From: Nitrospira sp.
GTDB taxonomy: Bacteria > Nitrospirota > Nitrospiria > Nitrospirales > Nitrospiraceae
Assembly (NCBI GenBank): GCA_016788885.1
Contig: JAEURX010000045.1
Span: 1-32,904 of the forward strand
DNA: 32,904 bases
Direction: 5' to 3'
Each line of letters begins with the position of its first letter. Position 1 is the stretch's first letter. Shown piece by piece: positions 5,513-24,555 of the stretch. Below the pieces are notes generated by a model, which worked only from the letters and a program-made list of their open reading frames with translations, was not told the origin of the DNA and ran no database searches. A program made the position numbers and the translations under genes.

Positions 5513-6172
5513 ATGGGGTATGATGCTGAAGTCGACGCCGACACAGGGGATCACGTCAGTTTTACGGGAGCGCAGGCACTCGTGTCCGATGACGCCGAAT
5601 GTATCGACCGAGTCTTGCGCGGGGACATCGATCGGTTCAGCGAATTGATCGCTCGGCACCAGCGCCATGTGCTGAAGATTGTGCAGGGACATGTGCCGGG
5701 GGATCATGTGGCGGAGGTGGCGCATGACGTGTTTGTTCGCGCCTATGCAGGGCTTTCGCAGTACTCAAGGCAGGTTCCGTTTGAACATTGGTTGTCTCGC
5801 CTCAGTGTTCGAGCCTGTTATGATTTCTGGCGTGCGCATCGTCGGACCGAGGTGCCCGTCAGCGGGTTGACCGATGATCAGGTGGGATGGCTGGACCGTG
5901 CGCTGGCAGATGAATCAGGCCAACGGTTCCGTGATCAAGCAGACCGGCGTGACTCGCTGGAAGTGTTGGACTGGGCGTTGACCCAATTGTCACCCGAACA
6001 CCGTCTGGTTTTGACTTTGGTGTCGCTTGAAGGCCGTTCCGTGCGCGAGGCGGCTGAGCTGTTGGGGTGGACGGTGGTCAACGTAAAGGTGCGGTGTTAT
6101 CGAGCCAGGCAAGCCTTGCGGGCGATTTTTCTTCGGGAATGGGAGCGACACCGGCATGACCGTCCATCGTAA
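5513..6172 (+). CDS. ECF-family RNA polymerase sigma factor
   Basis: A 219-residue extracytoplasmic-function sigma factor. Region sigma-2 spans about residues 40-110 (FSELIARHQRHVLKI, VAEVAHDVFVRAYAGL, FEHWLSRLSVRACYDFWR). Region sigma-4 spans about 147-205, with the helix-turn-helix SVREAAELLGWTVVNVKVR. It would redirect RNA polymerase to its own operon, which encodes an efflux system. The start is ATG 5513; a GTG at about residue 24 is possible since the first 25 residues are not part of the fold. The next gene, a membrane anti-sigma, overlaps it by 17 bases, and a periplasmic sensor follows. This is the order seen in CnrYXH-like metal-response modules. Confidence 0.92.
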   Translation: MGYDAEVDADTGDHVSFTGAQALVSDDAECIDRVLRGDIDRFSELIARHQRHVLKIVQGHVPGDHVAEVAHDVFVRAYAGLSQYSRQVPFEHWLSRLSVRACYDFWRAHRRTEVPVSGLTDDQVGWLDRALADESGQRFRDQADRRDSLEVLDWALTQLSPEHRLVLTLVSLEGRSVREAAELLGWTVVNVKVRCYRARQALRAIFLREWERHRHDRPS

Positions 6173-6476
6173 ACGCGCGTTGGGGCAGATTGAGGCGGTT
6201 CTGGCGCAGGCGCATCGCGCTCGCGGCGAGGTGGCTGTGGGAGAACAATGGGCGCAGGATGTCATGCGAACGATCCGGCGGGAGGCCGCGCAACATCCTG
6301 CCCCTTCTCTCCTGTCCTGGGCAGAGCCGTTGGTGTGGCGCGTGGCTACCGGTGCGGCGCTCGTGGCCCTGTTCTTTGCCGGGTCGGTGGCCGTGTATAC
6401 CAGGCAGCACCCCGCTCCGGTTACGGCAGCATGGCTTGAAGAGTTTGATGCGGGATCATCGTTTCCTGATCAATAA
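6156..6476 (+). CDS. Membrane-anchored anti-sigma factor (CnrY-like)
   Basis: A 106-residue single-span membrane protein. Its cytoplasmic N-terminal half is rich in charged helix (QWAQDVMRTIRREA, residues 31-44), a pattern typical of short anti-sigma helices that clamp an ECF factor. One transmembrane segment lies at about 62-81 (WRVATGAALVALFFAGSVAV), followed by a short periplasmic tail. It overlaps the sigma gene by 17 bases and so is translationally coupled. The function is inferred from position, size and topology; sequence similarity to known anti-sigmas is low by eye. It has no canonical zinc-binding HxxxCxxC motif, so it is not a ZAS-type anti-sigma. Confidence 0.75.
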   Translation: MTVHRKRALGQIEAVLAQAHRARGEVAVGEQWAQDVMRTIRREAAQHPAPSLLSWAEPLVWRVATGAALVALFFAGSVAVYTRQHPAPVTAAWLEEFDAGSSFPDQ

Positions 6477-6503
6477 CTCGGTCGGAGGCTCGGAGCGAGC
6501 GGT

Positions 6504-6926
6504 ATGTCACGCACCGGATTGTGGATTGGGCTGATCATCCTCTTTTTCGCCGGGACTTTAATAGGCGCCGTGGGGATGTCGCTGTATTCTCAGTACGAGG
6601 ATGAGCATCGATGGGAGCGGGGACCGGCGGCTCGAGAGGAACGGATTATGAAACGACTGACCCAGGACCTGGCCTTGTCGACGACACAACAGGCGGAAGT
6701 TGAGCCGATTGTGGCGCGTGCCCATCTTGAATTGTTACGGTTGCGGGTGCAGCACCAGCCGGATGTCGATCGGGTGCTCGATCTGGGGATGCAGGAACTG
6801 AAGACGAAGTTGTCGTCGGAGCAACAGGTCAAGTTGGACGGGCTCCATGCGCAGCTTCAGCAGCGCTGGCGGATGACCCGCGACTATGTCCGGCAGGCGC
6901 AGGATGCCGGGGGACGGAAGGAATAG
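6504..6926 (+). CDS. Periplasmic sensor, CnrX/CpxP-Spy-like
   Basis: A 140-residue protein with one N-terminal membrane anchor (about residues 6-27) and a helical periplasmic domain. The domain reads like the heavy-metal sensor and Spy/CpxP fold: [25 protein letters not shown], then [31 protein letters not shown] (LTxxQ-type repeats). Histidines at 35, 74, 84 and 115 and Met124 are possible metal ligands, but I cannot align them reliably with the CnrX site. In the Cnr system this partner restrains the anti-sigma until nickel or cobalt binds; here the signal is unknown. GGAG at 6492-6495 supports the start. It lies between the anti-sigma and pump genes. Confidence 0.8.
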
Positions 6927-6931
6927 CGGCG

Positions 6932-8170
6932 ATGGCTGAGTCGGTGAGATTTTCGACGCTCTTGAAACGGTGGATGATCGGGTTGTCGGCGGCCTGTCTA
7001 TTGGCTGTGGGCACCTACGTCATGATGACCAGGTCCGGTGAAGCCCAACCAGGCCGCGCGGAGAAGCGTCCGGCCATGGCCGCGAGGAATACGCCGGTCG
7101 TGGCGGCGGTGGCGAAAACCGGGGAGATCAATATTTATTTGAACGGCTTGGGATCCGTCATCCCGATGAATACGGTCACGGTCAAAAGCCGGGTAGACGG
7201 CCAATTGATGCGCGTGCTCTTCAAAGAAGGGCAGGTGGTGCACAATGGCGAGCTGCTGGCACAAATCGACCCGCGCCCCTTTGAAGTGCAGTTGATCCAG
7301 GCTCAGGGACAAATGGCGCGCGATCAGGCGCAGTTGAAAAATGCGCAATTGGATTTCGAGCGCTATCGCGACCTGTATAAGCAGAACTTCATCCCCAAGC
7401 AGCAGCTCGATACCCAGGAAGCCCTGGTGCGTCAATACGAGGGCATCGTCAAGGCCGATCAAGGGCAGATCGACAATGCCAAGTTGCAGCTGACCTATTC
7501 GAGCATTACCGCGCCGATCGACGGACGCGTCGGGTTGCGCCTCGTGGATGCGGGCAATATCGTGCATGCGAACGATCCCAATGGATTGCTGGTGATTACG
7601 CAGTTACAACCGATCACCGTTGTGTTCGCGCTGGCGGAAGATCACCTGCCGGCCGTGTTCGAGCGGCTCAAGGGCGGGAAGCCGCTTGTTGTGGAGGCCT
7701 TCGATCGCGAGCAGAAACGCAAATTAGCGACGGGCACGTTGCTCACTGTCGACAATCAAATCGATCCCACCACCGGAACCGTTCGCCTCAAAGCGGTCTT
7801 TCCGAACGACGACAGCGCGCTGTTCCCGAATCAGTTCGTGAATGCCCGTCTGTTGCTCGATATCAAACAAGGCGCGACCATCGTGCCGTCCGCGGCTATT
7901 CAGCGCGGACCCAAGGGAACATTTGTCTATGTGGTCAACGAAACGGAACAGACTGTCAGCGTGCGCGCAGTGACCGTGGGCGTGTCGCAAGGCGAAGACA
8001 CCTCGATCGACACCGGACTGACGTCAGGCGAAACCGTCGTGGTGGATGGAACTGAAAAATTACGCGAGGGCAGCAAGGTCGAGATGCGGCCCTCGGGCGG
8101 AGCGGTTCCAACCGGCCAGGAGAAGCCAGCGACCGGAGGGGAACGAAGAAAACAGGGGAATCGCACGTGA
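6932..8170 (+). CDS. mdtA: RND efflux periplasmic adaptor, MdtA-like
   Basis: A 412-residue membrane-fusion protein. It has one N-terminal anchor (about 12-30), a barrel-sandwich (lipoyl) half-motif ([22 protein letters not shown]), an alpha-hairpin with [23 protein letters not shown], the returning lipoyl half ([23 protein letters not shown]), and a beta-barrel region with [19 protein letters not shown]. These are the signatures of MdtA. It links inner-membrane RND pumps to an outer-membrane channel. GGAAGGAA ends just before the start, overlapping the sensor stop codon. Its stop overlaps the next start by four bases (GTGA). The tail after residue 390 is Gly/Pro-rich and probably disordered. 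Confidence 0.93.
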
Positions 8171-11100
8171 ACCCCTCGCGACTGTTCATCGTACGGCCGG
8201 TCGCGACGGTCCTGACGATGATCGCCATTCTGCTGGCTGGAGCGCTGGCGTATCGCCACCTGCCTGTATCCGCGCTTCCTCAAGTCGACTATCCCACGAT
8301 TCAAGTGTTGACGTTTTATCCCGGAGCCGGGCCGGACGTGATGACCTCCTCCATTACGGCCCCGCTCGAACGGCAGTTCGGACAAATGCCCGGGCTCAAC
8401 CAGATGACCTCGATGAGCTCCGGGGGCAGTTCGGTCGTCACCCTGCAATTCAGTCTCGACATCGATTTGGACGTGGCCGAGCAGGAAGTGCAGGCGGCCA
8501 TGAATTCGGCGGCCACCTTCCTGCCTCGCGATCTTCCCGCGCCGCCCGTCTATAACAAGGTGAATCCCGCAGATGCGCCGATCCTCACATTGGCGTTGAC
8601 GTCAGCCACCCTGCCCCTGTCGCAGGTCCGCGACTTTGCCGAAACCCGGTTTGCGCAAAAGATTTCCCAATTGTCCGGCGTGGGTCTGGTGAGCATCAGC
8701 GGGGGGCAACGTCCGGCCGTGCGCATCCAGGCCAATCCACGTGCGTTGGCCGCCTACGGCTTGACGCTGGAAGATCTTCGCGTCGTGGTGGCGGCTGCCA
8801 ATGTCAACCAGGCCAAAGGCGGTTTCGATGGGCCGCGCCGCGCGTCGATCATCAACGCCACGGATCAGTTATTCGCCGGCAAGGACTACAAGGCGTTGAT
8901 CGTGGCCTATCGCAATGGCGCTCCGGTTCGGTTGTCGGAAGTCGCTGAGGTCATCGACGATGTCGAAAACACCAAGCAGGCGGCCTGGATGAACGAGACG
9001 CCGGCGGTGATCGTCAACATTCAGCGCCAGCCGGGGACGAATGTCATCGAGGTAGTCGACCGGGTGAAGAAGTTGCTGCCGCAACTACAGAGCACGTTGC
9101 CGTCGTCAGTGCAGGTGTCCGTGCTGACTGACCGCACGACCTCGATTCGCGCCACGGTTCGAGATGTGCAGTTTGAGTTGGTGTTGGCGGTGGCCCTCGT
9201 GATCCTGGTGATTTTTTTGTTTCTGCGGACCTTGCCTGCCACGGTAATTCCGGCGGTGGCGGTGCCCCTGTCCCTCGTCGGAACCTTCGGGGTCATGTAT
9301 CTCATGGGCTTCAGCCTGAACAATCTGACCTTGATGGCGCTGACGATCTCTACGGGCTTCGTGGTCGACGATGCCATCGTGATGATCGAGAACATTGCGC
9401 GGTATCTCGAACGGGGAGACTCGCCCTTTCAGGCCGCTCTCAAAGGTTCGAAGCAAATCGCCTTCACCATCCTGTCGTTGACGGTGTCCCTGATTGCTGT
9501 GCTGATTCCCTTGATATTCATGGGCGATGTGGTGGGACGGTTGTTCCGCGAATTCGCTGTGACGCTGAGCATCACCATTCTCATTTCGGCCGTGGTGTCG
9601 CTCACCTTGACCCCGATGATGTGCGCCCGACTCTTACGAGAGCGGCGGGAGGAACAGCCTGGCCCATTGTCGCGGGTATCGCAGCGGGTGTTGGATCGCA
9701 TCATCGCGGGATATGGACGAAGTCTGCAGTGGGTGTTGCAGCGTCAGCAGGCGACGCTGGTCGTGACGGTCGCCACGCTCGTGGTCACCGTCGTGCTGTT
9801 CGTCCTGATTCCCAAGGGGTTTTTTCCGCTTCAGGACACCGGCGTGATCCTCGGCATTACAGAGGGACCGCAAGCGGTGTCGTTCGGCACGATGGCGGAA
9901 CGGCAGCAGGCTTTGGCTCGCGTCATCCTTGAGGAGCCGGCCGTGGAAAGCCTCACTTCGTTTATCGGTGTGGATGGCACGAATACGACACTCAACAGCG
10001 GGCGCATCTACATCAACCTGAAGCCGCTGGGAGATCGATTGGCCGGCGCCGGCGACATCATCCGCCGGCTGGAATCACGTGTGGTCGACGTAGACGGCAT
10101 CACCTTACACATGCAGCCGGTGCAAGACCTCACGGTAGAAGATCGGGTGAGCCGGACGCAGTTTCAATATACGCTGGAAGATGCGGATCCGGAGGAATTG
10201 AACCGCTGGGCCCCGAAACTCTTGGAAAGTTTGCAACTGCGGCCGGAGCTGCGTGATGTCAGCAGCGATCAGCTGAACCAAGGACTAGCCTCGCTCGTGG
10301 AGATCGACCGCAATACGGCTTCGCGTATGGGCATCACGCCGCAACTCATCACCGATACGTTGTACGACGCGTTCGGCCAGCGGCAGGTCTCCACCATGTT
10401 TACGCAATTGAATCAGTATCGCGTCATTCTGGAGGTCATGCCGGAATTTCAGAAGGGGCCAGAGGCGCTGCAGGCTCTGGAGGTGCGCGGGACAGGCGGC
10501 TCCGTGCCACTAAACGTCTTTACCCGTGTCACGGACACCACGGTCCCTCTTGTCATCAGCCGGCAGGGACAGTTTCCCGCGGTGACGATCTCATTCAACC
10601 TGGCGCCGAATGGCTCTCTCGGCGAGGCGGTGGAGGCGATCCGACATGTCACGCAGGAAGTGGGCCTTCCTGCCAGTATCCGCGGGAGTTTCCAGGGCGC
10701 GGCGCAGGCTTTTCAAAATTCGCTGGAGCATGAACCGTTGCTGATCCTGGCCGCCTTGATCACGGTCTATATCGTGCTCGGTATTTTGTACGAGAGCTAT
10801 ATTCATCCACTGACGATCCTCTCGACCCTGCCGTCCGCCGGCGTAGGCGCCCTGTTGGCCCTCATGCTGCTTCGTATGGAATTCAGTATCATCGCATTGA
10901 TCGGCATCATTCTGCTGATCGGGATCGTGAAGAAGAATGCCATCATGATGATCGATTTTGCCTTGGATGCCGAACGCACTGAGGGGAAGCGGCCGGAGCA
11001 GGCCATTTATGAAGCCGGGCTGCTGCGTTTTCGTCCCATCATGATGACGACCCTGGCTGCGCTGTTCGGAGCGTTGCCGCTTGCCATGGGGGCGGGCGTC

Positions 11101-11280
11101 GGCTCGGAGTTACGTCGTCCGCTCGGTATTGCGATCGTCGGCGGACTGGTCTTGAGCCAGCTGTTGACGCTGTACACCACTCCGGTGGTGTATCTTGCTT
11201 TGGATCGACTGGCCGCCCGCTTCCGCCGAAGTCCTGAGCCGGTGTCGGTAGGGGAAGCCGTGCCGATAGGTCCACCATGA
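8167..11280 (+). CDS. mdtB: RND multidrug efflux transporter, MdtB-like
   Basis: A 1037-residue inner-membrane RND permease of the HAE1 family, highly similar by recall to E. coli MdtB from the first residues ([28 protein letters not shown], then [16 protein letters not shown]). It has the expected twelve membrane spans in two halves. The proton-relay aspartates are present at 401-402 (GFVVDDAIV), as is the relay lysine region ([15 protein letters not shown], Lys922-Lys923). It starts with GTG at 8167, overlapping the mdtA stop, and its stop overlaps the mdtC start as ATGA. It works as a heteromultimer with MdtC in E. coli, where the pump exports bile salts, novobiocin and related compounds; the substrate here is unknown. 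Confidence 0.95.
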
Positions 11281-14200
11281 ATATTTCGGCTCCTTTCGTG
11301 CGGCGCCCTGTCGCGACCACCTTGCTGACGATCGGCGCGACCCTGGTCGGGCTCGTGGCGTTTCCCTTTTTGCCGGTGGCCTCGCTGCCGCAGGTCGAGT
11401 TTCCTACCATCAACGTGTCGGCATCGTTACCGGGGGCAAGTCCCGAGACGATGGCATCGTCCGTGGCGGCTCCCTTAGAGCGTCAGTTCACTCGCATCGC
11501 CGGCGTCACGGAAATGACCTCCTCCAGTACGATCGGCGGAACCAACGTCACCCTTCAGTTTGAGCTCAACCGGGATATCGACGGCGCCGCGCGGGATGTG
11601 CAAGCCGCGATCAATGCGGCTCGTGCCGATCTTCCCAGTAATCTGCCGACGGCCCCCAAGTACAGCAAGGTCAATCCTGCCGACGGCCCCATTCTGATTT
11701 TGGCTATCACCTCTGACCTCGTCACTCGTGGGCAAATGTACGATGCGGCGTCGAGCATCCTGCAGCAGAAACTTTCGCAGGTGGAAGGCGTGGGGCAGGT
11801 GGCTGTGGGCGGAGGGTCATTGCCGGCGGTCCGTGTGGATCTCAATCCCACCGCCTTGAACAAGTACGGCATCGGGTTGGGAGAGGTGCGCCAGATTCTG
11901 AACAGTACCAATGTGAACCGTCCGAAAGGGCAACTGACCGCGGACGATCATACATGGGAAATCAGGACCAATGATCAGCTCCACAAAGCCGAGGACTATC
12001 TGCCGTTGATCGTGGCGTATCGAAACGGGCGCGCCGTGCAGTTGTCCGATGTGGCGGCGGTGGAGTCGTCGGTCGAGGATTTGCGAACCATGGGGGTCGC
12101 GAACGGCACGCCGGCCGTCTTGGTGATCATCTATCGGCAGGCTGGCGCGAACATCATTGAAACCGTGGATCGTCTTCGCGCGCGCCTGCCTCAGCTGGAA
12201 GCGTCCCTTCCGGGTAGTATGTCCTTGTCCATCGTGATGGATCGGACGCCCGTCATTCGCGCGTCGTTGCATGATGTCGAACGGACCCTCGCCATTTCCG
12301 TCGCCCTCGTGATTCTCGTGGTGTTCGCGTTTCTCCGCGATGTGCGGGCCACCTTGATTCCGGCCGTGGCCGTTCCCGTGTCGCTGATCTCTACGTTCGG
12401 TGTCATGTACGTGCTGGGTTATAGCCTTGATAATTTGTCGCTCATGGCGCTCACGATTGCGACGGGGTTTGTGGTAGACGACGCGATCGTCGTGCTGGAA
12501 AATATCACACGCTATCGCGAACAGGGCGTACCGCCCCTGGAGGCGGCCCTGCGAGGCGCAAGGGATATCGCCTTCACGGTCGTCTCGATGACCCTCTCGC
12601 TGGTGGCAGTATTCATCCCGATTTTTCTGATGGGCGGGATGCTCGGCCGGCTGTTTCGTGAATTCGCCGTCACCTTATCTGTGGCGATTCTGGTGTCGCT
12701 GCTCATATCACTCACGACGATTCCCATGCTGTGCGCGCGTGTCCTGAAGTCGGGTGTTGTCCATTCGCATGGCTGGTGGTATCGGATAAGCGAACGGGGG
12801 TTCCGCGTTATGTTGCGTGGCTACGCTACCAGCCTGACCTGGGTCCTCCGGCATCCACATATGATGTTGGCGGTGACGTTAGCCACCATGGCGCTCACGG
12901 TGTATCTTTACATTCTCGTGCCAAAAGGATTTTTCCCCCAGCAGGATACCGGTCGGCTGTTCGGCAATATCCAAGCGGCGCAGGATATCTCGTTTCAAGC
13001 GATGCGGCAGAAACTCACCGAAGTCGTAGAGATCATCAAGAGCGATCCGGCCGTCTCCAGCATCACGGGCTTCACAGGCGGCGGGGGCCATGCCGGCACG
13101 ACCAATACGGGACGGATGTTCATCGCCCTCAAGCCGCTTGAAGAACGCGGCCTCAGTTCCGACGAGGTGATTGGCCGGCTGCGTCCAAAACTGGCGAAGG
13201 TGCCGGGCGCTCCAACCTATCTGCAAGCTATTCAGGATCTGCGGATCGGTGGCCGGGCCAGTAGCGCGCAATATCAATATACGCTGCAGAGCATGGATCT
13301 TGCTGAACTTAACACCTGGGCGCCGAAGGTGGAGGCGAAATTGCGGACGCTTCCGGAGGTTGTGGATGTGAACAGCGATCAGCAGGATCGGGGGCAACAA
13401 TCCCTTGTCGTGTTCGATCGGACGACTGCGTCCCGGCTCGGGTTGAGTCCCCAACTCATCGACGATACATTGTATGACGCCTTTGGTCAGCGGCAGGTGT
13501 CGATCATGTATACTCCGCTGAATCAATACCACGTGGTGATGGAAGTTGCTCCGCAATACTGGCAGAACCCGTCCGCGTTACATGAAATTTATGTTCGATC
13601 CCCAAGCGGTGCTCAGGTGCCGTTGAGCGCGGTGACGCGGTACGAGCCGGCCAATACCATTTTGTCCGTCAACCATCAGGGACAATTTCCCGCGGTGACG
13701 CTGTCGTTCAATATGGCTGCTGGCGTGTCGTTAGGGGAGGCTGTGCTGGCTGTGGATGCAGCCATGCGCGACATCGGTTTGCCGGCGAGCGTGCGCGGGA
13801 CATTTCAGGGAACGGCCAAGGCGTTCCAATCCTCTGTAGAGAATCAACCTTGGTTGATTCTGGCGGCGCTGGTTACAGTGTACATCGTGCTGGGGATTCT
13901 CTATGAGAGTTACATTCATCCTGTCACGATTCTCTCCACCTTGCCTTCCGCCGGGGTAGGAGCCTTGTTGGCATTGCTGCTGTTCAAATCGGAACTGAGC
14001 ATGATCGCCTTGATTGGGATTATGCTGCTGATCGGCATTGTGAAGAAAAATGCCATCATGATGATCGATTTTGCTTTGCAGAGTGAACGGATAGGAGAAG
14101 GGAAAACTCCACAGGCAGCGATTTACGAAGCCTGCCTGCTGCGGTTCCGGCCGATCATGATGACCACGGCGGCAGCCCTCCTCGGTGCATTGCCCCTGGC

Positions 14201-14378
14201 CGTAGGTATGGGGGTGGGATCGGAACTGCGGCGCCCGCTCGGCATCGCCATCGTGGGCGGTCTGTTGGTGAGTCAGGTCCTCACGCTCTACACGACTCCT
14301 GTCATGTATCTGCTTCTCGACCGTCTACGACTTCGATGGGTTCGGGCTCGAGAGGCCTCCCCGCATCCCGCCGCCTAG
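11277..14378 (+). CDS. mdtC: RND multidrug efflux transporter, MdtC-like
   Basis: A 1033-residue second RND permease, paralogous to but distinct from the preceding one. It matches MdtC features: [35 protein letters not shown] near the N terminus, the substitution pattern [23 protein letters not shown], proton-relay Asp401-Asp402 ([14 protein letters not shown]) and Lys923-Lys924 ([15 protein letters not shown]). In E. coli the MdtB2C heterotrimer is the working pump. The start overlaps the mdtB stop by four bases, so the three pump genes are translationally coupled. No TolC-type channel or BaeSR two-component pair follows, unlike enterobacteria; control appears to come from the ECF unit at the operon head. 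Confidence 0.95.
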
Positions 14379-14430
14379 AGACTCGCATTCAATACACACA
14401 TACTCCGCCTCGTTTGTGACGATATGCGCA

Positions 14431-14471
14431 TTGACAACTGTTTCCCCATCATGATATTGAGAATTGCTATC
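14431..14471 (+). promoter_or_regulatory. Promoter with overlapping Fur-like box
   Basis: A perfect -35 TTGACA (14431-14436) is followed after 16 bases by a -10-like GATATT (14453-14458, 4 of 6 to TATAAT). The -10 is overlaid by GATATTGAGAATTGCTATC (14453-14471), which matches the classical Fur 19-mer GATAATGATAATCATTATC at 14 of 19 positions, including both outer GATA/TATC ends. The region is AT-richer than its surroundings. It lies upstream of tonB and an iron-type receptor operon, so iron repression is a natural reading. Confidence 0.6.
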
Positions 14472-14613
14472 AAGAATTGTGGAGGAAGCCTCTAATAAGT
14501 TTTAGTCAATGACGCGGATCGTGAATCGAGTTCACGCAACATTCGAATAAGGCCAGCGGCCCCATGCGGTCAGAGCCCAAAGTTGTCTCACGACAGCTTT
14601 GGGCTTTTTGTTT
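14465..14613 (+). ncRNA. Candidate Fur-controlled small RNA or attenuated tonB leader
   Basis: Transcription from the promoter at 14431-14458 would start near 14465 and run into a strong intrinsic terminator ending near 14610, about 50 bases before tonB. The roughly 148-base product has no ORF of note and contains successive hairpins: GAGG/CCTC (14482-14492), CGTGAA/TTCACG (14520-14536), GGCC/GGCC (14551-14561) and the terminator. This is either an iron-regulated small RNA or a leader that attenuates tonB. Boundaries are estimated, and no similarity to a named RNA family was seen. Confidence 0.35.
14574..14613 (+). terminator. Strong intrinsic terminator upstream of tonB
   Basis: AGCCCAAAG (14574-14582) pairs with CTTTGGGCT (14597-14605), and TGTC/GACA continues the stem inwards with one T-G wobble, giving a 14-pair stem with a 4-base TCAC loop. 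It is followed by TTTTGTTTTTT. It could end transcripts from the efflux operon (stop at 14378) or those starting at the Fur-type promoter at 14431. Confidence 0.85.
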
Positions 14614-14660
14614 TTTGTCGCCCGGTTTCAGGGTGTTGTCGGAAGAGGGAGGTCGAAAAA

Positions 14661-15701
14661 ATGTCGGAAGCCGCACTGACGGCAAATATCGCCCATATAC
14701 AAGGAGCTCGCAGTGGAGGGTGGCTGATTTCATTGGTACTGCATGGCGGACTTGTCGCTCTCGCGATGCAGACTGTGATGGAGGTCAAGCCGCATCTTCA
14801 AACGGAGACCTTTCGATGGGATGTGGCATTGCACCAGGCGCCGACACCGAGTCCTGTTGCTGCTGAGGCGCTTCCTACACAAGAGTCGGTTCCAAGACGG
14901 ACAGAGCCCACGAAACCAGTGTCTTCGTCCGTCTCGAGTCCTTCGCGAGCGCCGGTTCCCAAGGTCGTGGAGCGGACGGCAATCGTTCAAACGGTTCAGG
15001 CTACGCAAGTCACCCCGCGAGTAGTCGAACGCTCCGCCCCTCAGGAGCGCCAGTCGGTCGTGACAGAGGTACAACCGGTTACCTCGCGACCGGTTGAGAC
15101 AGTAGTGGCCCATGCGCAGGAGATCCTGCAACAGACAAACCAGGACGCTGTTCAGGCCGTCGAAGCGCAATCGGTGACAGCACAGTTGTCTGAAACGATG
15201 ATTCAGCAGTCAGCCGTTCCCGTCGAAACCCTGGCGACCGAGGTGGAACAGCCCGCTATCGTCGCACAAGAGGTAGTTCAGACTGAGTCCTCCGTCGCTA
15301 CTGCAACGGTTTCACTCAATGGGCCGCAGGACGCGGTTGTGTCGGAGCCAATCGTCACGCACCAGAGTGCAGTTGTCCATCGTGAGGTGCGTGAGACGGC
15401 GTCGGCGCAGGCAGACCTTGGTTGGTTAGCGGAGTCCCTGTGGACGCGGATCGAGCAATTGAAGCGGTATCCCAGGCAGGCGCGAGCGCGTCGGTGGGAA
15501 GGCAAGGTGGTGTTGGAAGCGGTGATCCGTCATGACGGAACGATTCTCGAATGTTTGGTCGCCGAAAGTTCCGGCCACGGCTTGCTGGATCAAGATGCCA
15601 TCTCGGTGTTGAGGAAAGCTTCTCCGCTTGCCCTGAAACACCCGCTGGGGAAAGAGCAAATCACTATTCTGGTGCCGATCGCCTATCGGCTCGAGGGGTA
15701 A
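14661..15701 (+). CDS. tonB: Energy transducer TonB
   Basis: A 346-residue TonB protein. An N-terminal transmembrane anchor (about residues 20-37, GGWLISLVLHGGLVALAM) is followed by a long Pro/Val/Glu/Thr-rich periplasmic spacer. The C-terminal TonB domain lies at about 260-346 (WTRIEQLKRYPRQARARRWEGKVVLEAVIRHDG, then ESSGHGLLDQDAISVLRKASPL). It transmits proton-motive force, via ExbB-ExbD, to outer-membrane receptors; no exbB/exbD is in the window. ATG 14661 is chosen because GAGGGAGG (14645-14652) lies eight bases before it; the frame is open back to 14583 but that part overlaps the terminator. The likely client receptor is encoded at 16582. Confidence 0.9.
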   Translation: MSEAALTANIAHIQGARSGGWLISLVLHGGLVALAMQTVMEVKPHLQTETFRWDVALHQAPTPSPVAAEALPTQESVPRRTEPTKPVSSSVSSPSRAPVPKVVERTAIVQTVQATQVTPRVVERSAPQERQSVVTEVQPVTSRPVETVVAHAQEILQQTNQDAVQAVEAQSVTAQLSETMIQQSAVPVETLATEVEQPAIVAQEVVQTESSVATATVSLNGPQDAVVSEPIVTHQSAVVHREVRETASAQADLGWLAESLWTRIEQLKRYPRQARARRWEGKVVLEAVIRHDGTILECLVAESSGHGLLDQDAISVLRKASPLALKHPLGKEQITILVPIAYRLEG

Positions 15702-15741
15702 GGAGCGGCAAGTCATCTTACGCGATCAAAGGAGTTTCGTC

Positions 15742-16200
15742 ATGAGCGATGTCATGCAGAATGTGCGGAAGAGAGTAGTCGAGGCGGTCCTGTGCAGCGC
15801 GTGCCTCTTGTGGTTGGGGGCGGGGCCGGTCCTGGCTCAACCGAAAGGTGACAAGGTGTTTCAGGCGGTGGCGACCGATGCAAAGGGCGTCGAGACCGAG
15901 GTGCACGGCGTCATCTTCTACTGGGAAGAAAAAATAAGCGAAACATCGTTTGTGCCGCATGAGCTGAAGGAAGTGCCGGTCAAACGCGGAACCGCGACGG
16001 TCAAGATCAAGTTCGATGTCATCAAGACGATCGACGTGAAACCGTCCGGGAATGGGACGCCGCCCGCTGTGTCCATTACGTTGAGCGACGGAAAAGCGGG
16101 AGAGTTTACCCTGGCCATAGCCGGAAGCTTTAAAGGGCAATCGGATTTTGGCGAAGTCGAATTGCCGGCAGTTGACCTCAAACGCATTGCGTTCAAATAA
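15742..16200 (+). CDS. Exported protein of the tonB operon, unknown function
   Basis: A 152-residue secreted protein. The signal peptide spans about residues 1-32 (CSACLLWLGAGPVLAQ). The mature domain is beta-rich and reads as one small sandwich (VFQAVATDAKGVETEVHGVIFYWEEK, then FGEVELPAVDLKRIAFK). No family is recognised. The start has AAAGGAG ten bases upstream; an in-frame ATG four codons on is less well placed. It lies 41 bases after tonB and 54 bases before a Com-like zinc finger, so it is probably in the tonB transcription unit. By position it may help metal or siderophore uptake, but nothing in the sequence shows that. Confidence 0.8.
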   Translation: MSDVMQNVRKRVVEAVLCSACLLWLGAGPVLAQPKGDKVFQAVATDAKGVETEVHGVIFYWEEKISETSFVPHELKEVPVKRGTATVKIKFDVIKTIDVKPSGNGTPPAVSITLSDGKAGEFTLAIAGSFKGQSDFGEVELPAVDLKRIAFK

Positions 16201-16253
16201 ATTTCACGAGTAATCGAGCGGCGGCAGAGAGGCCGTCGAGCGGAGGAACTGGC

Positions 16254-16442
16254 ATGACGAACAGCACGAAGCGCGACACGGCTCGGATTTTAGCTTGCGA
16301 CGATGTGCGTTGCCGGTGTGGACAGCTTGTCGCGCGATGGGCGGAACAGGGCATCGAAATCAAGTGCAAGCGGTGCCGGCGTCTCGTCACGATTGCCTTT
16401 AACGCGATCGGAGGGAGGCCGCCGGCGATGCTTGCGAACTAA
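16254..16442 (+). CDS. Com-like small zinc-finger protein
   Basis: A 62-residue protein containing DVRCRCGQLVARWAEQGIEIK and CKRC, that is Cys20-x-Cys22-G with Cys38-x2-Cys41, around the 'R..G.GIEIKC.RC' core typical of the Com family. Phage Mu Com is a zinc-binding translational activator that binds mom mRNA; bacterial relatives are annotated as Com-family regulators but their targets are mostly unknown. GGAGG about six bases upstream supports the start. It is the last gene before the terminator at 16493 and directly precedes the TonB-dependent receptor. A role in controlling translation of neighbouring mRNAs is possible but unproven. Confidence 0.75.
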   Translation: MTNSTKRDTARILACDDVRCRCGQLVARWAEQGIEIKCKRCRRLVTIAFNAIGGRPPAMLAN

Positions 16443-16492
16443 CTATTTCCGAGCGACGTCAAGGTAGAGGCCAAAGGACCGTGCGTGTCCAG

Positions 16493-16528
16493 AGCCCAAG
16501 ACCATCAACATGGTCTTGGGCTTTTTAT
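16493..16528 (+). terminator. Intrinsic terminator after the Com-like gene
   Basis: A perfect 13-bp stem: AGCCCAAGACCAT (16493-16505) pairs with ATGGTCTTGGGCT (16510-16522), with a CAAC tetraloop and a following TTTTATTG. It ends the tonB transcription unit. Its outer stem (AGAGCCCAA ... TTGGGCTTTTT) is shared with the terminator at 14574. No convincing promoter was seen in the 54 bases between it and the receptor gene. Confidence 0.85.
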
Positions 16529-16581
16529 TGTGTGGTGATGCGTTGTGAGTATCCGTGAATGAATAAGGAGAACAACTAATC

Positions 16582-18768
16582 ATGGCGGGACGTATCCGGG
16601 TCATGGGTGGAAGGGCTGTATGGGTGTTGGCGATAGGACTTGGTTGTAGCTGGAATACCCTTGTTCTGGCGCAAGGGATAGAGACGACTGTTCCCGGCCA
16701 GCAGGCCTCCGATGCAGGGACCAGCGCAGATGAGAGGAACACGGCGGTCGAGCCGGAGCAGCCGGCGAAGTCCAAACCAGTGAAGATTCCCGAAGTGATG
16801 GTGAAAGACGTGCACGAACGAAACGAGCCGGATCAGGAATCGGTGAAGGACATCGCGGGATCGGTAAATGTCGTCACGCGCGAGGAAATTCAGCGCGCCC
16901 GGCCGAAAAACGCCGACGAAATGTTGCGGCGCGTGCCCGGTGTCAACGTGCTCGACGAATATGGCCAGGGGATGCGACCCAACATCGGCATCCGGGGTAT
17001 GGATCCCCGGCGCAGCAAAAACATTCTCCTCATGTTGGACGATATCCCCATACAACCGGCCCTCTTTGGCGATGCCTCAACGTATTACATGGTGCCGATC
17101 GAACGCATCGACCATATCGAGGTGATCAAAGGAGGCGCCTCGGTTCTCTATTCACCGAATACTCAGGGTGGCCTCATTAATTTTATTCAGAAACGGATTC
17201 CTACGACGCCGACGTTTTCCACCACGAATACGTTCGGCAGTTTCAACTTGTTTCAGTCGGACACGCAGTACGGGGGCCATTGGGGGAATTTTGGCGCACA
17301 ACTCGGGTATGTCCGGCGCCAGTCAGACGGTTTCAGAGACCATAGCAAATCCCAGCTGGATGATTTCACGATGCGATTCGAGGCCAATCCCGACGATCGG
17401 ACGCGCATTACGACGAACATCTCCTGGTACGACGAAACGACGCAGACGCCTGGAAGTATTACACCCGCTCAATACCGGAGCGATCGCACACTGGCCGGGA
17501 AACCGAATGATGAATTCAAAGGGCAGCGTGGAGCCATCGATGTGACGGCGAGCCGGGAGATCGACGCCCACAACACGGCCAAGGTCATCGTGTACGGCAA
17601 CGTGTTCGAACGGAACTGGTATATCCAGGACCAGGCCGCCAACGGGACGCTGCTCTCGACCAGTCAAAACTTTCTGCGCAAGTTCAATGTCTTCGGCGTC
17701 ATGCCGCAACACCAATTCAAATTTTCGCTCTTTGGATTGGATCAGCAGATCACCTCCGGCGTGCGGTATCACGCGGAGCGGCTGACGGACATTACTGGAA
17801 TCGGGACGGCCGGTTCGAAGATCAGCCGCACGACGAACAACGCCGATTTGGAATCGGTGGCCTATGCGGCCTATACGGAGACGGCGATTCGGCTGACCGA
17901 AGCCTTCACCATTTCGCCAGGCATACGGTGGGAGCAGGTCAATCAAAGCCGCGAGACGATGAACGCCGTTCCCCCTGCTGGAGGGAATTTCAAGAGCTAC
18001 AAGACGACACAAGGACTGATCTACGGGACAGGGGTGAAGTATCAACTCACCCCGGACAGCATGCTGTTCGGCCACGTCCATACGACCTTCAGGCCGCCGA
18101 CCTTCGCCAATGCCGTCGATCCGACGAGTGGAACCACACAAGACCTCTCGGCTGAGCGCGCATTGAGTTCGGATATTGGCATTCGGTCCATGCTGGTCCC
18201 GGGGGTGAGTGCGGAACTCGCGCTGTTTCGCACCGAATTCAGCAATCAGATTGTCCAGCAGGGCAGTCAGTTCGTCAACGCCGGAAAGACGTTGATGGAA
18301 GGAATCGAAAGCACCGTCAGTCTCGATTGGGGAGAAATTGTCCGTCCACTGCAAGGCTTCGTCACCAGAGGCAGCATCACGCTCTTACGGCCGAAGTCCC
18401 TATTCGGAGCGACGGACGGGAAAGACCTGCCGTATGCCCCGCGCATGACGTTCTATGGATTGGTGGGCTATTACCACCCGACCGGGGCGTCGATTGAAGC
18501 TGATGCCACGTATGTCGCGCAACAGTTTACCGATGGCGCGAATACCCAGACGGAAAATGCCCTCGGTACAAACGGCGCCATCCCTTCCTACACCATCTGG
18601 AATCTGCGGCTCAATTACGCGCCGCCGAAGGCGAAGTGGGCCATTTTCGCCGGTGTACGCAATCTGACCGATGAATCATTCATCGCGCAACGCACCACCG
18701 GCAGTTTCCTGGGGATTCAGCCCGGTGAAATCCGGAATTTCTACGGTGGGGTCTCCTGGAGATTTTAA
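16582..18768 (+). CDS. TonB-dependent outer-membrane receptor (FecA/siderophore type)
   Basis: A 728-residue receptor. A signal peptide (about 1-31, ending VLAQG) and a linker with a possible TonB box (IPEVMVKDV) precede the plug domain, about 80-200, with GSVNVVTREEIQRARPKNADEMLRRVPGV, PNIGIRGMDPRRSKNILLMLDDIPI and IEVIKGGASVLYSPNTQGGLINF. The rest forms the 22-strand barrel, ending in the outer-membrane C-terminal aromatic (SWRF). The plug most resembles FecA-like ferric citrate or siderophore receptors; the exact ligand is open. AAGGAG precedes the start. The two downstream genes, DUF4198-like and PepSY, are usual companions of metal-uptake receptors. An upstream Fur box was not found for this gene itself. 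Confidence 0.92.
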   Translation: MAGRIRVMGGRAVWVLAIGLGCSWNTLVLAQGIETTVPGQQASDAGTSADERNTAVEPEQPAKSKPVKIPEVMVKDVHERNEPDQESVKDIAGSVNVVTREEIQRARPKNADEMLRRVPGVNVLDEYGQGMRPNIGIRGMDPRRSKNILLMLDDIPIQPALFGDASTYYMVPIERIDHIEVIKGGASVLYSPNTQGGLINFIQKRIPTTPTFSTTNTFGSFNLFQSDTQYGGHWGNFGAQLGYVRRQSDGFRDHSKSQLDDFTMRFEANPDDRTRITTNISWYDETTQTPGSITPAQYRSDRTLAGKPNDEFKGQRGAIDVTASREIDAHNTAKVIVYGNVFERNWYIQDQAANGTLLSTSQNFLRKFNVFGVMPQHQFKFSLFGLDQQITSGVRYHAERLTDITGIGTAGSKISRTTNNADLESVAYAAYTETAIRLTEAFTISPGIRWEQVNQSRETMNAVPPAGGNFKSYKTTQGLIYGTGVKYQLTPDSMLFGHVHTTFRPPTFANAVDPTSGTTQDLSAERALSSDIGIRSMLVPGVSAELALFRTEFSNQIVQQGSQFVNAGKTLMEGIESTVSLDWGEIVRPLQGFVTRGSITLLRPKSLFGATDGKDLPYAPRMTFYGLVGYYHPTGASIEADATYVAQQFTDGANTQTENALGTNGAIPSYTIWNLRLNYAPPKAKWAIFAGVRNLTDESFIAQRTTGSFLGIQPGEIRNFYGGVSWRF

Positions 18769-20429: not shown

Positions 20430-20501
20430 GCGCGGGCGGGATGACGCGACGGTGGCGTTTTCTTTCGCTGGTTGTTTAGAATGAGCGCTCTGAGGTGGGG
20501 A

Positions 20502-22535
20502 ATGACGATTCGTACCATCAAGGGCCGCATTGTACTCGCCATTGTGCTGGTGGGCTGTATTCCGCTCCTGATCGGACTCATTCTCGCCTACATGTCCGGT
20601 ATGCGTTCGCTTCGCGACGTGATCGGCGGAAATTTTCAAGCGATTGCCGAACAGGCCGCCGATCGCCTGACCATGCTCGTGCAGAGCGAAGTGCAGGGGG
20701 TGCGGTTGCTTGCATCCGCGCCTTTGCGGGTGCGTCAGCCGGTCGAAGCTGCCAATCTGTCTTATGCGGGCGAGTGGTCCGACACGCAGCGGCTGATTCA
20801 AGAACGCGCGAAGGAATGGGAGAGAGGACACGACAACGCGGCCGGCCTGTTGAATTCAGAATTGTCGCGCTTTCTTCTAGAGACGAAAGTCCGCGACGGC
20901 GACAAGATGGTCGGGCTGCTGATCACCGACCGGTATGGAGCATTGGTCGCAGCCAGTTCGGAACCGGATCACTACTTCCTCAGCCATGAACCCTGGTGGG
21001 AAGCCTTACAGGCCGGAGGCCTCGATCGCGTCTACGTCAGCGGGTTAATCCCCGGGCAGGAAGGATCCTTTCGCTCGCCGGAAGAGACCATCGATATTGC
21101 GGTTCCCATCCTTGACGACCATCAGCACACGGTCATCGGTGCCATTAAGGCGTCCTATCGGTTTGATTCTCTCTTCGCGATGATCAAAGAGATTCGGATC
21201 GGGCAGACCGGGCACGCCATGTTGTTCGACGCAGCCGGGCAGCCTCTGGTCTGTCCCATTTTGCCGCGTCGCGCCCATCGAATCCCCGGCCAGTTGATGA
21301 CCATGATCGTGTCGTCAAACCCCGGTTGGGGCATCGCCGAAGACGACGGCCATGGAGCGACGGATACGGTGGTAGGATATGCGCCGGTCACGGGGCTGAG
21401 CCTGCCGGACAACTCCTGGCACGTCTTCGTGCGGCAACAACCGGAGGAAACTTACGCACCCATTCGCGACCAGTTACGAAACCTCGCGTTGATCGGAGTG
21501 GTGATGTTGGGCCTGCTCTGGGCGATGGGCCGCTACGTGGCGACCAGAATCGCCCAACCGATTCAAGTGCTCAAGACGGGTGTGGAAGCGATCAGCCGAG
21601 GCACCTACGACGGCCCGCTCGATGTGAAAACCGGCGATGAATTTGAAGACCTCGCGGCGGCTGTCCATCGCATGGCCGATCGGTTGCAGGCCTCGCGCAT
21701 CGAGCTGGAGTCACTGAATGCCGAACTCACGCATCGGGTCGAGGAGAAGACCGCGGAGATTACGCGGCAGATGCGGAAACTGGAACTCTCGGAGCGGTTG
21801 GCGACATTGGGTAAGGTGGCGAGCGGGATCGCGCATGAAATTAACAATCCACTCGGCATCATTCTCAATCGTATCGAATGCATGGAGGCCGACGCCGCGC
21901 AGTCGAACGTGCCGGATGAGGTTGCCCGCGATCTGGTGACCATTCGCTCTCAAGCCGAACGAATCTCCAGAGTGACGCGCAGCATCCTCACGTTCTCTCG
22001 CGGGACGGTGTCCATGCTGAAGCCGCTCGACCTCAACTGCGTGGCCCGGACCTGCGTGGCCATGGCAGGCGAACGGATGACGGGGCTTTCTGTCCGGATC
22101 GGCATGGATCTGGCACCTGTCTTGTCGCCTGTGATGGGTGATCGTGATCGATTGGAAACCGTGCTGCTGAACGTGATCAATAACGCCATTGATGCGGTGA
22201 CCGCTTGTGGCGATCGGGGAGTGGTCACGGTTCGGACGACTCCTGTGCAGATCGATGGTGATGAGTGGGTGCAGATCAGCATATCGGACAACGGGCCCGG
22301 TGTGCCGACGGCGATTGCGGATCGAATTTTTGATCCATTTTTTACGACGAAGCCGGCAGGCCAGGGAACGGGGTTGGGCTTATTCTTGAGTTATGGCATT
22401 GTCTCAGACCATCGCGGCCGGATTGAGGTGCGGAACGACAACGTGGGCGCCGTGTTTGAGATCTATCTGCCTGCGGTGGGCCTGGGTGAACGCGTGCATG
22501 AAGGAGCACCATGGGGATTGCAGGAAAAATTCTGA
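20502..22535 (+). CDS. Sensor histidine kinase (dCache-HAMP-HisKA-HATPase)
   Basis: A 677-residue membrane kinase. TM1 lies at about residues 9-30 and TM2 at about 326-343, enclosing a roughly 290-residue periplasmic sensor that looks like a double Cache domain (VGLLITDRYGALVAAS, then IGQTGHAMLFDAAGQPLV). A HAMP and coiled coil (about 344-420) follow, then the phospho-acceptor His445 in GIAHEINNPLG, the N-box NVINNAIDAV, and ATP-binding GPGVP and GTGLGL motifs. ATG 20502 is preceded by GAGGTGGGG; ATG 20481 is an alternative with no ribosome site. It overlaps the NtrC-family gene by 25 bases, so the two form a pair. The Cache sensor suggests a small periplasmic ligand. Confidence 0.9.
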   Translation: MTIRTIKGRIVLAIVLVGCIPLLIGLILAYMSGMRSLRDVIGGNFQAIAEQAADRLTMLVQSEVQGVRLLASAPLRVRQPVEAANLSYAGEWSDTQRLIQERAKEWERGHDNAAGLLNSELSRFLLETKVRDGDKMVGLLITDRYGALVAASSEPDHYFLSHEPWWEALQAGGLDRVYVSGLIPGQEGSFRSPEETIDIAVPILDDHQHTVIGAIKASYRFDSLFAMIKEIRIGQTGHAMLFDAAGQPLVCPILPRRAHRIPGQLMTMIVSSNPGWGIAEDDGHGATDTVVGYAPVTGLSLPDNSWHVFVRQQPEETYAPIRDQLRNLALIGVVMLGLLWAMGRYVATRIAQPIQVLKTGVEAISRGTYDGPLDVKTGDEFEDLAAAVHRMADRLQASRIELESLNAELTHRVEEKTAEITRQMRKLELSERLATLGKVASGIAHEINNPLGIILNRIECMEADAAQSNVPDEVARDLVTIRSQAERISRVTRSILTFSRGTVSMLKPLDLNCVARTCVAMAGERMTGLSVRIGMDLAPVLSPVMGDRDRLETVLLNVINNAIDAVTACGDRGVVTVRTTPVQIDGDEWVQISISDNGPGVPTAIADRIFDPFFTTKPAGQGTGLGLFLSYGIVSDHRGRIEVRNDNVGAVFEIYLPAVGLGERVHEGAPWGLQEKF

Positions 22536-23929
22536 TCGTTGATGACGAGCAGGATGCGTTGGACAATTGCCGGCGGATTTTGAGTCGTGTGCCTTATGAT
22601 TGTCTGACCGAATGTGATCCGGCCCGCGCATTGGATATCATTCAGCGCGAGCGGCCGGGATTGATTCTGACCGATTTGCGCATGCCGCAGCTGGACGGGA
22701 TTGAAGTGTTGGCTGCGGCCAAACGAATGGATCCCTCGGTCCAAGTGGTGCTGTTGACGGCGCATGCCACCGTGCAGACCGCGGTGACGTCGATGCGGTA
22801 TGGCGCCTTCGACTACATTACCAAACCGTTCACCAGCATCGACCTGGTGCAAGTCGCCCGGCGAGCATTCGGCGAAGATGGCGCGACGGCTGCGAAGCAA
22901 ACCGGGGGAGCTGAGGTCCGGCCTCCTGTTGATCAGGAGCGTCCGGGGAAGCGGGCCGGTTTGTCCCGAGTGATCGGGGAAAGCCCCGCCATGGAGTCGG
23001 TCTTCAGCCTGATCGAAAAGGTGGCTCCCACGCATTCCAACGTGTTGGTCTATGGAGAAAGCGGCACGGGAAAAGAACTCGTTGCGCGCGCGATTCACGA
23101 TGCCAGCCTGCGGGCGGACCGTCCCTTCATTCCGGTGGATTGCGTGTCGTTGCCTGATACGCTTCTGGAATCGGAACTGTTCGGTCATGAGAAGGGTGCC
23201 TTTACCGGTGCGCATGTCTCAAAGCCGGGGTTGTTCGAGGTGGCGGCAGGCGGGACCGTGTTTCTGGACGAGGTCAGCGGAATGAGCCAGACCTTGCAGT
23301 CGCGGTTACTGCGGGTCTTGCAGGAGCGGCAAATGCGGCGCGTCGGTGGCATCCGGTTCTTGGATATCGATGTGCGGGTGATTGCGGCATCGAACCAGGA
23401 TCTTGAAGCCGCCTGCCGGCGGGGAGAGTTTCGCGAGGACCTCTATTACCGGCTGAATGTCATTCCCATTGTTCTTCCACCGTTACGAAATCGTGAGGGA
23501 GACATTCTGCTCCTGGCGCGGGAATTTCTGCGGCGGTTCGTCAAGCAGCAACGGCTGGGGTTGGCGTGTGTGCCGGAATTGGATGCGTCGGCGACGGATC
23601 TGTTGTGCGGGTACTCCTGGCCGGGAAATGTACGTGAGTTGCAAAACGTCATTGAGCGGGCCGCAGTTCTGGCCGATGGGCCGGTCATTACGAGCGTCCA
23701 CTTGCCCGATCGGTTGCGGCAATGCGGAGGGGAGGAGTCTGCGTCAGGAGAAGCCGGCTCCTTCAAACATGCCAAGCAGGTGGCGGTCACGACATTCGAG
23801 CGAAGTTTTTTGATCGACCTCCTGAAGAGAAACGATGGGCACATGGGGAAAGCCGCCCGTGAAGCCGGAGTGGACCGAAAGACGGTTGAGCGGATGGTCA
23901 AGAAACATGGCTTGCGCGAACTGTTCTAG
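22511..23929 (+). CDS. NtrC-family sigma-54-dependent response regulator
   Basis: A 472-residue regulator with three domains. The receiver (about 5-120) holds phospho-acceptor Asp55 in LTDLRMP and Thr/Lys switch residues. The AAA+ ATPase (about 153-385) has Walker A GESGTGKE (182-189), the sigma-54-contacting GAFTGA loop (229-234) and Walker B GGTVFLDE (247-254). The C-terminal Fis-type helix-turn-helix is at about 430-472 (MGKAAREAGVDRKTVERMVKKHG). AAGGAG lies seven bases before the start. It is the cognate partner of the overlapping kinase. The likely target is the oxidase gene immediately downstream, whose leader holds a sigma-54 promoter and tandem dyads. Confidence 0.95.
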   Translation: MGIAGKILIVDDEQDALDNCRRILSRVPYDCLTECDPARALDIIQRERPGLILTDLRMPQLDGIEVLAAAKRMDPSVQVVLLTAHATVQTAVTSMRYGAFDYITKPFTSIDLVQVARRAFGEDGATAAKQTGGAEVRPPVDQERPGKRAGLSRVIGESPAMESVFSLIEKVAPTHSNVLVYGESGTGKELVARAIHDASLRADRPFIPVDCVSLPDTLLESELFGHEKGAFTGAHVSKPGLFEVAAGGTVFLDEVSGMSQTLQSRLLRVLQERQMRRVGGIRFLDIDVRVIAASNQDLEAACRRGEFREDLYYRLNVIPIVLPPLRNREGDILLLAREFLRRFVKQQRLGLACVPELDASATDLLCGYSWPGNVRELQNVIERAAVLADGPVITSVHLPDRLRQCGGEESASGEAGSFKHAKQVAVTTFERSFLIDLLKRNDGHMGKAAREAGVDRKTVERMVKKHGLRELF

Positions 23930-23935
23930 CCGAAA

Positions 23936-24054
23936 GCGTAAAACGTAAAAAGTTCAATGTGAAAGGTAAGACCAGACGCGAGGTGTGTGCTTTCAGATCG
24001 TTCACGTCCTATTCTTTGTCTTTCGTTTCACATGGTGCCTTTCACGTTTTGCGC
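23936..24054. repeat. Long imperfect inverted repeat after the NtrC-type gene
   Basis: Bases 23936-23972 and the reverse complement of 24018-24054 match at 30 of about 37 positions, giving a hairpin with about 37-bp arms and a loop of about 45 bases. Matching blocks include AAAACGT and ATGTGAAA. It begins seven bases after the regulator's stop codon, so it may shape or end the transcript, or be the remnant of a dispersed repeat. Confidence 0.6.
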
Positions 24055-24098
24055 CTTACGTTCACCGTTTCCGTCACGCGTTCACCGTTTCTATTCAC
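24001..24098 (+). repeat. Degenerate TTCAC-rich direct repeats
   Basis: TTCAC occurs six times in under 100 bases, at 24001, 24027, 24041, 24061, 24081 and 24094. Two 12-base copies of GTTCACCGTTTC are exactly 20 bases apart (24060-24071 and 24080-24091). This intergenic sequence is not coding and overlaps the right arm of the inverted repeat. It has no spacer structure of a CRISPR. Confidence 0.6.
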
Positions 24099-24143
24099 GG
24101 TTCGGCTGATGGCTCTCCGTTCATTGTTTGAATGGGGCATTGA

Positions 24144-24171
24144 TGTCCCATGGGGACAAATGTTCCGGACA
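24144..24171. promoter_or_regulatory. Candidate enhancer: two tandem dyads upstream of the sigma-54 promoter
   Basis: TGTCCC-ATG-GGGACA (24144-24158) is a perfect 6-bp dyad. TGTTCCGGACA (24161-24171) is a near-perfect dyad sharing the TGT..C/GGACA half-site, with centres 15 bases apart. They sit about 145-170 bp upstream of the -24 element at 24312, in the range used by NtrC-family activators. The binding protein is inferred to be the adjacent regulator. Confidence 0.5.
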
Positions 24172-24222: not shown

Positions 24223-24250
24223 ATGGGGCGCGGTCGCCCCATTGTTGTTT
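24223..24250 (+). terminator. Candidate terminator of the kinase-regulator operon
   Basis: ATGGGGCG (24223-24230) pairs perfectly with CGCCCCAT (24235-24242) around a CGGT loop, followed by TGTTGTTT. The T-run is broken, but the 8-bp GC-rich stem and tetraloop are good. It lies between the proposed enhancer and the sigma-54 promoter. Confidence 0.5.
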
Positions 24251-24311: not shown

Positions 24312-24328
24312 CTGGAACGAGAGTTGCT
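24312..24328 (+). promoter_or_regulatory. Sigma-54 promoter of the giant multicopper oxidase
   Basis: CTGGAACGAGAGTTGCT fits the sigma-54 consensus TGGCACG-N4-TTGC(A/T) at every informative position but one (A for C in TGGC). The invariant GG (24314-24315) and GC (24326-24327) are exactly 10 bases apart. Transcription would start near 24339, giving a leader of about 217 bases before the oxidase start at 24556. The sigma-54 activator gene lies immediately upstream. Confidence 0.75.
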
Positions 24329-24372
24329 CCCGTATCCGGCGTCTTTTTGTGCGCAGTTCTTTCTATGCGCAT

Positions 24373-24480
24373 TGATGGGTGCGCCATCATGTGATGCCGC
24401 GAATCAAGGGTGTGGAAACCGAAGGACCGGCCTCCTGGTGTTTCCACTCCATGAGGTGCAGGCCTTCACGGGCCTGCACC
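24373..24480 (+). promoter_or_regulatory. Structured leader of the oxidase mRNA
   Basis: Three hairpins lie in succession in the predicted leader: TGATGG/CCATCA (24373-24378 with 24384-24389), GTGGAAAC/GTTTCCAC (24412-24419 with 24440-24447) and GGTGCAGGCC/GGCCTGCACC (24455-24464 with 24471-24480, a perfect 10-bp stem). The remaining 75 bases lead to the ribosome site GAGGAGGT at 24541. I do not recognise a known riboswitch, including the manganese (yybP-ykoY) class. Confidence 0.4.
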
Positions 24481-24555
24481 GCACGCGGCGCGGCTCGGTG
24501 GCAGAGAGTGGGAGTGCGGAGGGTTGTTGTATGGTTTCAAGAGGAGGTAGGTCTA

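Follow-up and report, generated by a model that had tools for sequence, protein, structure and literature searches.

Probable sigma-54 promoter, paired palindromes and conserved leader RNA upstream of an MnxG-like multicopper oxidase gene in Nitrospira

Kinase, regulator and oxidase genes

Contig C45 of a 3.92-Mb Nitrospira genome is the window considered here, that is, the whole stretch of DNA that was analysed (32,904 nucleotides). It carries, in this order, genes for a sensor histidine kinase, an NtrC-type response regulator and a large multicopper oxidase, the last two being separated by an intergenic gap of 626 bp (Table 1). The regulator satisfies the criteria for an AAA+ activator (GAFTGA motif and Fis-type HTH), and the kinase adjoins it in every orthologous locus with sufficient flank, with the sole exception of the L038/L054 pair. 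The oxidase aligns with the solved MnxG chain (PDB 9bxa, E=5e-80), and scores 127 bits against the curated NCBIfam MnxG model NF041487, for which the cut-off is 3100; as it falls so far under this value, it is considered remotely related to MnxG rather than a true MnxG. A Shine-Dalgarno (SD) sequence conserved among orthologous leaders argues for 24556 as its start codon. The genome contains a single copy of rpoN (E=1.5e-56), with the RpoN box ARRTVAKYRAE, and the absence of this gene, which an earlier note made from the sequence alone had named as refuting its sigma-54 promoter, therefore does not apply.

Upstream of these genes, positions 5513-18768 harbor genes for an MdtABC-like RND efflux system, an ECF sigma factor, TonB and a FecA-like receptor. 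Just 3' of the regulator gene (23933-24057) lies a 40-nt inverted repeat of CGTTTCACGTTTT-like words, strongly variable among orthologs and resembling an intergenic repeat element. Nitrospira-type oxidase loci are also held by two records titled uncultured Nitrosospira (CAADGJ01; L036, with a protein identity of 96%, and L072), a title that probably reflects a misassignment.

Table 1. Positions of the genes, regulatory elements and leader RNA parts in the window
Feature	Position	Strand	Basis or remark
Sensor histidine kinase, dCache_1-HAMP-HisKA-HATPase_c	20472..22535	+	Pfam; probable sensor for the promoter
NtrC-type response regulator: receiver, sigma-54 AAA+ with GAFTGA, Fis-type HTH	22511..23929	+	Probable activator
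Distal palindrome UAS1, ATGGGGCATTGATGTCCCAT	24132..24151	.	Probable enhancer; conserved in 19/19 leaders
Proximal palindrome UAS2, ATGGGGCGCGGTCGCCCCAT	24223..24242	.	Probable enhancer; conserved in 19/19 leaders
Sigma-54 -24/-12 promoter (very probable), CTGGAACGAGAGTTGCT	24312..24328	+	GG 24314-24315, GC 24326-24327
Predicted transcription start, with conserved first transcribed bases (CGTCTTT..)	24339..24355	+	Start inferred from -12 geometry
Three-way-junction leader RNA	24396..24489	+	Folding, covariation
Leader RNA outer stem	24396-24401/24484-24489	+	Part of three-way junction
Leader RNA core hairpin	24408-24450	+	Part of three-way junction
Invariant core, GGACCGGCCTCC	24424..24435	+	Reverse complement of paralog SD-to-start region (GGAGGCCGGTCC-ATG)
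Leader RNA second hairpin	24455-24480	+	Part of three-way junction
Oxidase Shine-Dalgarno AGGAGG	24542..24547	+	Conserved among orthologous leaders
Multicopper oxidase, 1626 aa	24556..29436	+	Pfam Cu-oxidase_3; distant MnxG relative

Promoter, palindromes and adjacent regulator

Compared with the sigma-54 consensus YTGGCACGN4TTGCW, the promoter element presents one informative mismatch (A for C at 24317) and an exact GG-N10-GC spacing, in agreement with the earlier note. The claim that it is the only correctly spaced site also held within the window, where no other sequence lies within one mismatch of TGGCACGNNNNTTGC (TGGCACGN4TTGC). In a weighted scan of both strands of the window, using weights that approximate, by our own estimate, the published conservation, it ranks first with a score of 0.93, the runner-up reaching 0.87, and when the 626-bp intergenic region is simulated as a first-order Markov sequence, 0.175% of trials contain an equal or better score on the + strand.

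Could such a site be a chance match, with another promoter driving the oxidase? In favor of this possibility, the motif TGGMACGN4TTGC is not enriched genome-wide (3 exact matches versus 6 for the reversed control), so that the sequence match alone is insufficient and a comparison is needed; "near-perfect", as the match had been called, thus becomes a good match, and it is the comparison across orthologs that decided. Among 19 distinct leaders of orthologous Nitrospira oxidases, the element is the best sigma-54 match in all 19, and 24314-24318 (GGAAC), 24324-24329 (TTGCTC) and the GG-N10-GC core are invariant, at a distance from the start codon varying from 103 to 315 bases. Against the chance match stand this invariance at variable distance, the recurrence of the site in six other genera (see below), and the failure of a search for a sigma-70-like promoter in the region, and this reading can be practically dismissed. 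The sigma-54 interpretation is in turn supported by rpoN, the adjacent NtrC-type activator, the top match in the 19 leaders and the recurrence in other genera, leaving little doubt that 24312-24328 is a sigma-54 promoter, on computational grounds only, without expression data. Transcription starting near 24339 with a leader of 217 bases (24339-24555), as predicted in the earlier note, is consistent with the promoter geometry and remains unmapped. The block at 24339-24355 has a mean column identity of 0.81. Over the ~17 bases transcribed first (CGTCTTT..G.GCA), conservation equals that of the regulatory elements; these bases might serve as another protein site or belong to the RNA.

Two palindromes upstream of the promoter, as well as a structured RNA in the leader, had been overlooked in the earlier note, which thus understated the finding. 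Both palindromes follow the consensus ATGGGGC-N6-GYCCCAT, precede the promoter by ~89 and ~180 bp and are 91 bp apart in the window, a spacing kept at 90-92 bp in all 19 genus leaders. Their mean identities to the window (0.90 and 0.84) approach that of the promoter core (0.92), intervening stretches reaching 0.50-0.57. The gap between palindromes and promoter is 9 bp shorter in L035 and 33 bp shorter in L038/L054, and helical phasing of the palindrome-to-promoter distances is weak at 10.5 bp. The genome has no exact match besides the two copies in the window; around three further copies with one mismatch, no equally high sigma-54 site was found within the surrounding 2.4-3 kb, and most paralogous oxidases (63-85% identity) lack any such element at the promoter position. 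The proximal palindrome could alternatively be the terminator of the regulator gene, as its hairpin and T-rich tail are flagged as terminator-like. Against this, conservation of the T run breaks down in L103, L109 and L019, and the arm sequence is itself conserved, beyond pairing, and recurs 91 bp upstream and beside regulator paralogs; a terminator instead of an enhancer is thus very improbable.

Orthologs of the regulator (at least 84% identity) are present in 20 of the 29 genomes of the genus. In one such locus with an early contig end (L159), the order regulator, two palindromes and promoter is kept, and in three genomes two palindromes and a sigma-54 site likewise lie downstream of a regulator paralog (65-66%). 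Relatives of the regulator (62-72%) occur in six other genera, from which 32 loci were fetched. About 20 of them show a palindrome with a sigma-54 site after it, and 14 of these have two palindromes, 88-92 bp apart; no palindrome was detected in the scanned downstream stretch of nine loci, some of which lie at the end of a contig or at a gap. The multicopper oxidase downstream is mostly 48-54% identical to that of the window, and 85% in L218, which has both palindromes and a GGAACAGGAGTTGC site, the latter spotted by eye. Since this array recurs before divergent oxidases, the control region and the regulator stay together despite oxidase divergence. The sister genomes G022 and G026 keep the palindromes and promoter in the absence of the kinase/regulator pair (best regulator 44%), and it is conceivable that another activator suffices there, or that these sites are decaying after loss of the pair.

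In the upstream regions L038 and L054, from two sister genomes, both palindromes and the promoter persist, and the leader RNA element is gone along with the kinase/regulator pair. At the paralogous locus of L156, L157 and L158, the regulator precedes two palindromes and a sigma-54 site, after which come a second NtrC-type regulator and a further sigma-54 site, then the leader RNA core and finally an additional multicopper oxidase, an arrangement that may form a sigma-54 cascade.

On the basis of this co-occurrence only, the two palindromes are probably enhancers for the adjacent kinase/NtrC-type regulator pair, no binding data being available. Control of the oxidase promoter by this pair is likewise probable, with regulator binding inferred and no expression, footprinting or genetic data.

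Leader RNA and its match to a paralogous oxidase

The leader folds into a three-way junction in which, across 17 copies, 97.4% of cells are paired and 9 of the 25 pairs are compensated, values that none of 500 shuffles reached. A covariance model run over 29 genomes retrieved 23 copies, all of them in orthologs of the leader studied and in tandem in four genomes. No match above the gathering score was found in Rfam 15 anywhere in the window. Leaders from other genera share the same design, with an outer stem 98.3% paired, seven compensated pairs and the core GGAYYGRCCTCC; several of them have a U-rich run after the outer stem, which, by inference, could terminate a short leader RNA. On these computational grounds, there is every reason to regard the leader as a conserved structured RNA.

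Other identities were considered for this leader. A dispersed repeat is ruled out by its single copy in the genome. A CsrA target fits poorly: CsrA is present in the genome, but the conserved core is far longer than the GGA motif, and the GGA is paired. An in-frame upstream GTG ORF exists (24379), and a coding leader is disfavoured because orthologous leaders differ by indels.

Paralogous oxidase genes, among them the C65 copy in the same genome, have an SD-to-start stretch (GGAGGCCGGTCC-ATG) to which the core of the first hairpin, GGACCGGCCUCC, is exactly reverse-complementary; the ribosome binding site (RBS) of the paralog reads AAGGAGGCCGGTCCATG. The hypothesis of an antisense RNA arose post hoc from this match, and whether core and target covary among genomes was tested only then. 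In G060, G096, G133 and G135, which have GGAGGTCGGTCC as the paralog site, the core reads GGACCGACCTCC, and in G055, with GGAGGCCAGTCC at that site, it reads GGACTGGCCTCC; pairing is achieved via G-U wobble in G054, G142 and G160, and a 17-nt match is preserved through G-U wobbles in G064. In all six genomes without the ~70% paralog, the core matches the RBS of a ~67% paralog over 15-17 nt, upstream bases included (AGCGAGGGGAGGCCA). Over 21 genomes, the duplex between leader and paralog RBS has a mean energy of -33.0 kcal/mol within the same genome versus -27.9 kcal/mol when the two come from different genomes (permutation p = 5e-5).

These values call for some caution. A script assigned the start codons on the basis of the best in-frame SD; sites of L057 and L094 were added from named contigs, that of G138 was corrected by hand, and miscalled starts in G094, G096 and G138 were excluded from the duplex test. 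Duplex energies leave out the cost of opening the hairpin, permutation values overstate independence because the genomes are related, and the retargeted genomes form one part of one genus. The paralog RBS is conserved even in genomes without the leader, which indicates that it was not shaped by the leader.

Two other explanations can be opposed to a trans-acting RNA. The first is a purely cis-acting leader, riboswitch-like or attenuator, in which the CCUCC core masks the SD of the oxidase itself; it remains possible, as the RNA element is located in the leader, is duplicated in tandem in four genomes, and has a core that, in the window, can pair in part with the SD of its own gene (83% over 12-nt arms). 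However, this complementarity to AGGAGGTAGGTC (24542-24553) is only partial, the paralog RBS is a better partner than the own RBS in 16 of 16 genomes (mean of -33.2 versus -22.1 kcal/mol), and core variants track the paralog RBS, up to the wobble-preserved match of G064. The second is that the core merely mimics the anti-SD tail of 16S rRNA, covariation being a phylogenetic coincidence, as CCUCC can pair with any SD and clade members share both sequences. This appears unlikely, since complementarity of 12-17 nt exceeds the SD, duplexes with other genes of the window are weak (-9 to -25 kcal/mol), only 2 of 2000 shuffled window leaders match the observed duplex energy, and each genome lacking the usual paralog matches another one.

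The balance of this evidence, which is computational only, tips slightly towards the leader being a trans-acting antisense RNA that switches isoenzymes, repression itself being inferred. In a bolder version of this antisense reading, to which we also lean by a small margin, the leader of Nitrospiraceae would repress paralogous oxidase mRNAs at their RBS, evolve with its target and be retargeted upon paralog loss.

Proposed regulation and known systems

In the model proposed here, the periplasm-facing kinase, in response to a signal that is only inferred, would phosphorylate the adjacent NtrC-type regulator. Once phosphorylated, the regulator would bind both palindromes and loop to the sigma-54 RNA polymerase at 24312-24328; the conservation of the promoter, the pairing of the palindromes and their co-occurrence with the regulator are computed results, the binding itself being inferred. 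Transcription would begin near 24339, an inferred start, and induce the MnxG-like multicopper oxidase. The leader, whose covariation is established by computation, would then fold into its three-way junction, with a core hairpin antisense to the RBS of the paralogous oxidase mRNA. Complementarity that covaries between genomes is also a computed result; repression of the paralog by the induced transcript, or by a leader fragment of it, leading to an isoenzyme switch, is inferred. None of the inferred steps rests on expression, footprinting or genetic data. Taken together, promoter, regulator and structured leader, leaving the antisense step aside, form an account that is probably correct.

Several known systems can be compared with this locus. 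In Pseudomonas putida, MnxS1/MnxS2-MnxR control mnxG and mcoA, sigma-54 sites are predicted at the oxidase promoters, and an rpoN insertion in a relative abolishes Mn oxidation (PMC11409713, PMC11930936). Both systems associate a sensor kinase and a sigma-54-dependent response regulator with a large multicopper oxidase target, and as the Nitrospira oxidase is a distant MnxG relative, the circuit resembles that of Pseudomonas. In contrast to the latter, the Nitrospira pair lies directly upstream of the oxidase, with two palindromes 91 bp apart and a structured leader RNA. That the Nitrospira circuit would work like MnxSR-MnxG is an analogy only: membership is not established, and Mn oxidation is untested. 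Compared with NtrC-type enhancer-dependent promoters, the layout is ordinary, with a -24/-12 element, tandem palindromes ~90 and ~180 bp upstream and an adjacent REC-AAA-Fis activator. To our knowledge, no described regulator has the palindrome sequence ATGGGGC-N6-GYCCCAT.

For the leader, the SreA riboswitch of Listeria, which acts in trans on prfA (PMC8079631), offers a precedent of a leader RNA with a second role, pairing in trans with a separate mRNA whose translation it blocks; for the Nitrospira leader, such an activity is only a prediction. Unlike SreA, the predicted target is the RBS itself, on a paralog of the leader's own gene, and no ligand or terminated fragment has been shown. An MnxG-like multicopper oxidase of Nitrospina/Nitrospira, of the same enzyme family and organism group, has been discussed for Mn-based ROS defence (PMC3578206), regulation being absent from the relevant sections of that paper, and no description of the promoter or leader RNA was found in the literature searched.

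Nitrite-oxidising Nitrospira possess several giant MnxG-like multicopper oxidases with unclear roles. For one such oxidase, a promoter has now been defined by computation, together with its likely activator, an operator sequence, and a leader RNA for which a target is predicted. If the antisense step is true, the leader would provide a compact means for an induced enzyme to shut off its paralog and represent a new family of structured RNA, the transcript of the induced gene thus containing its own riboregulated isoenzyme switch.
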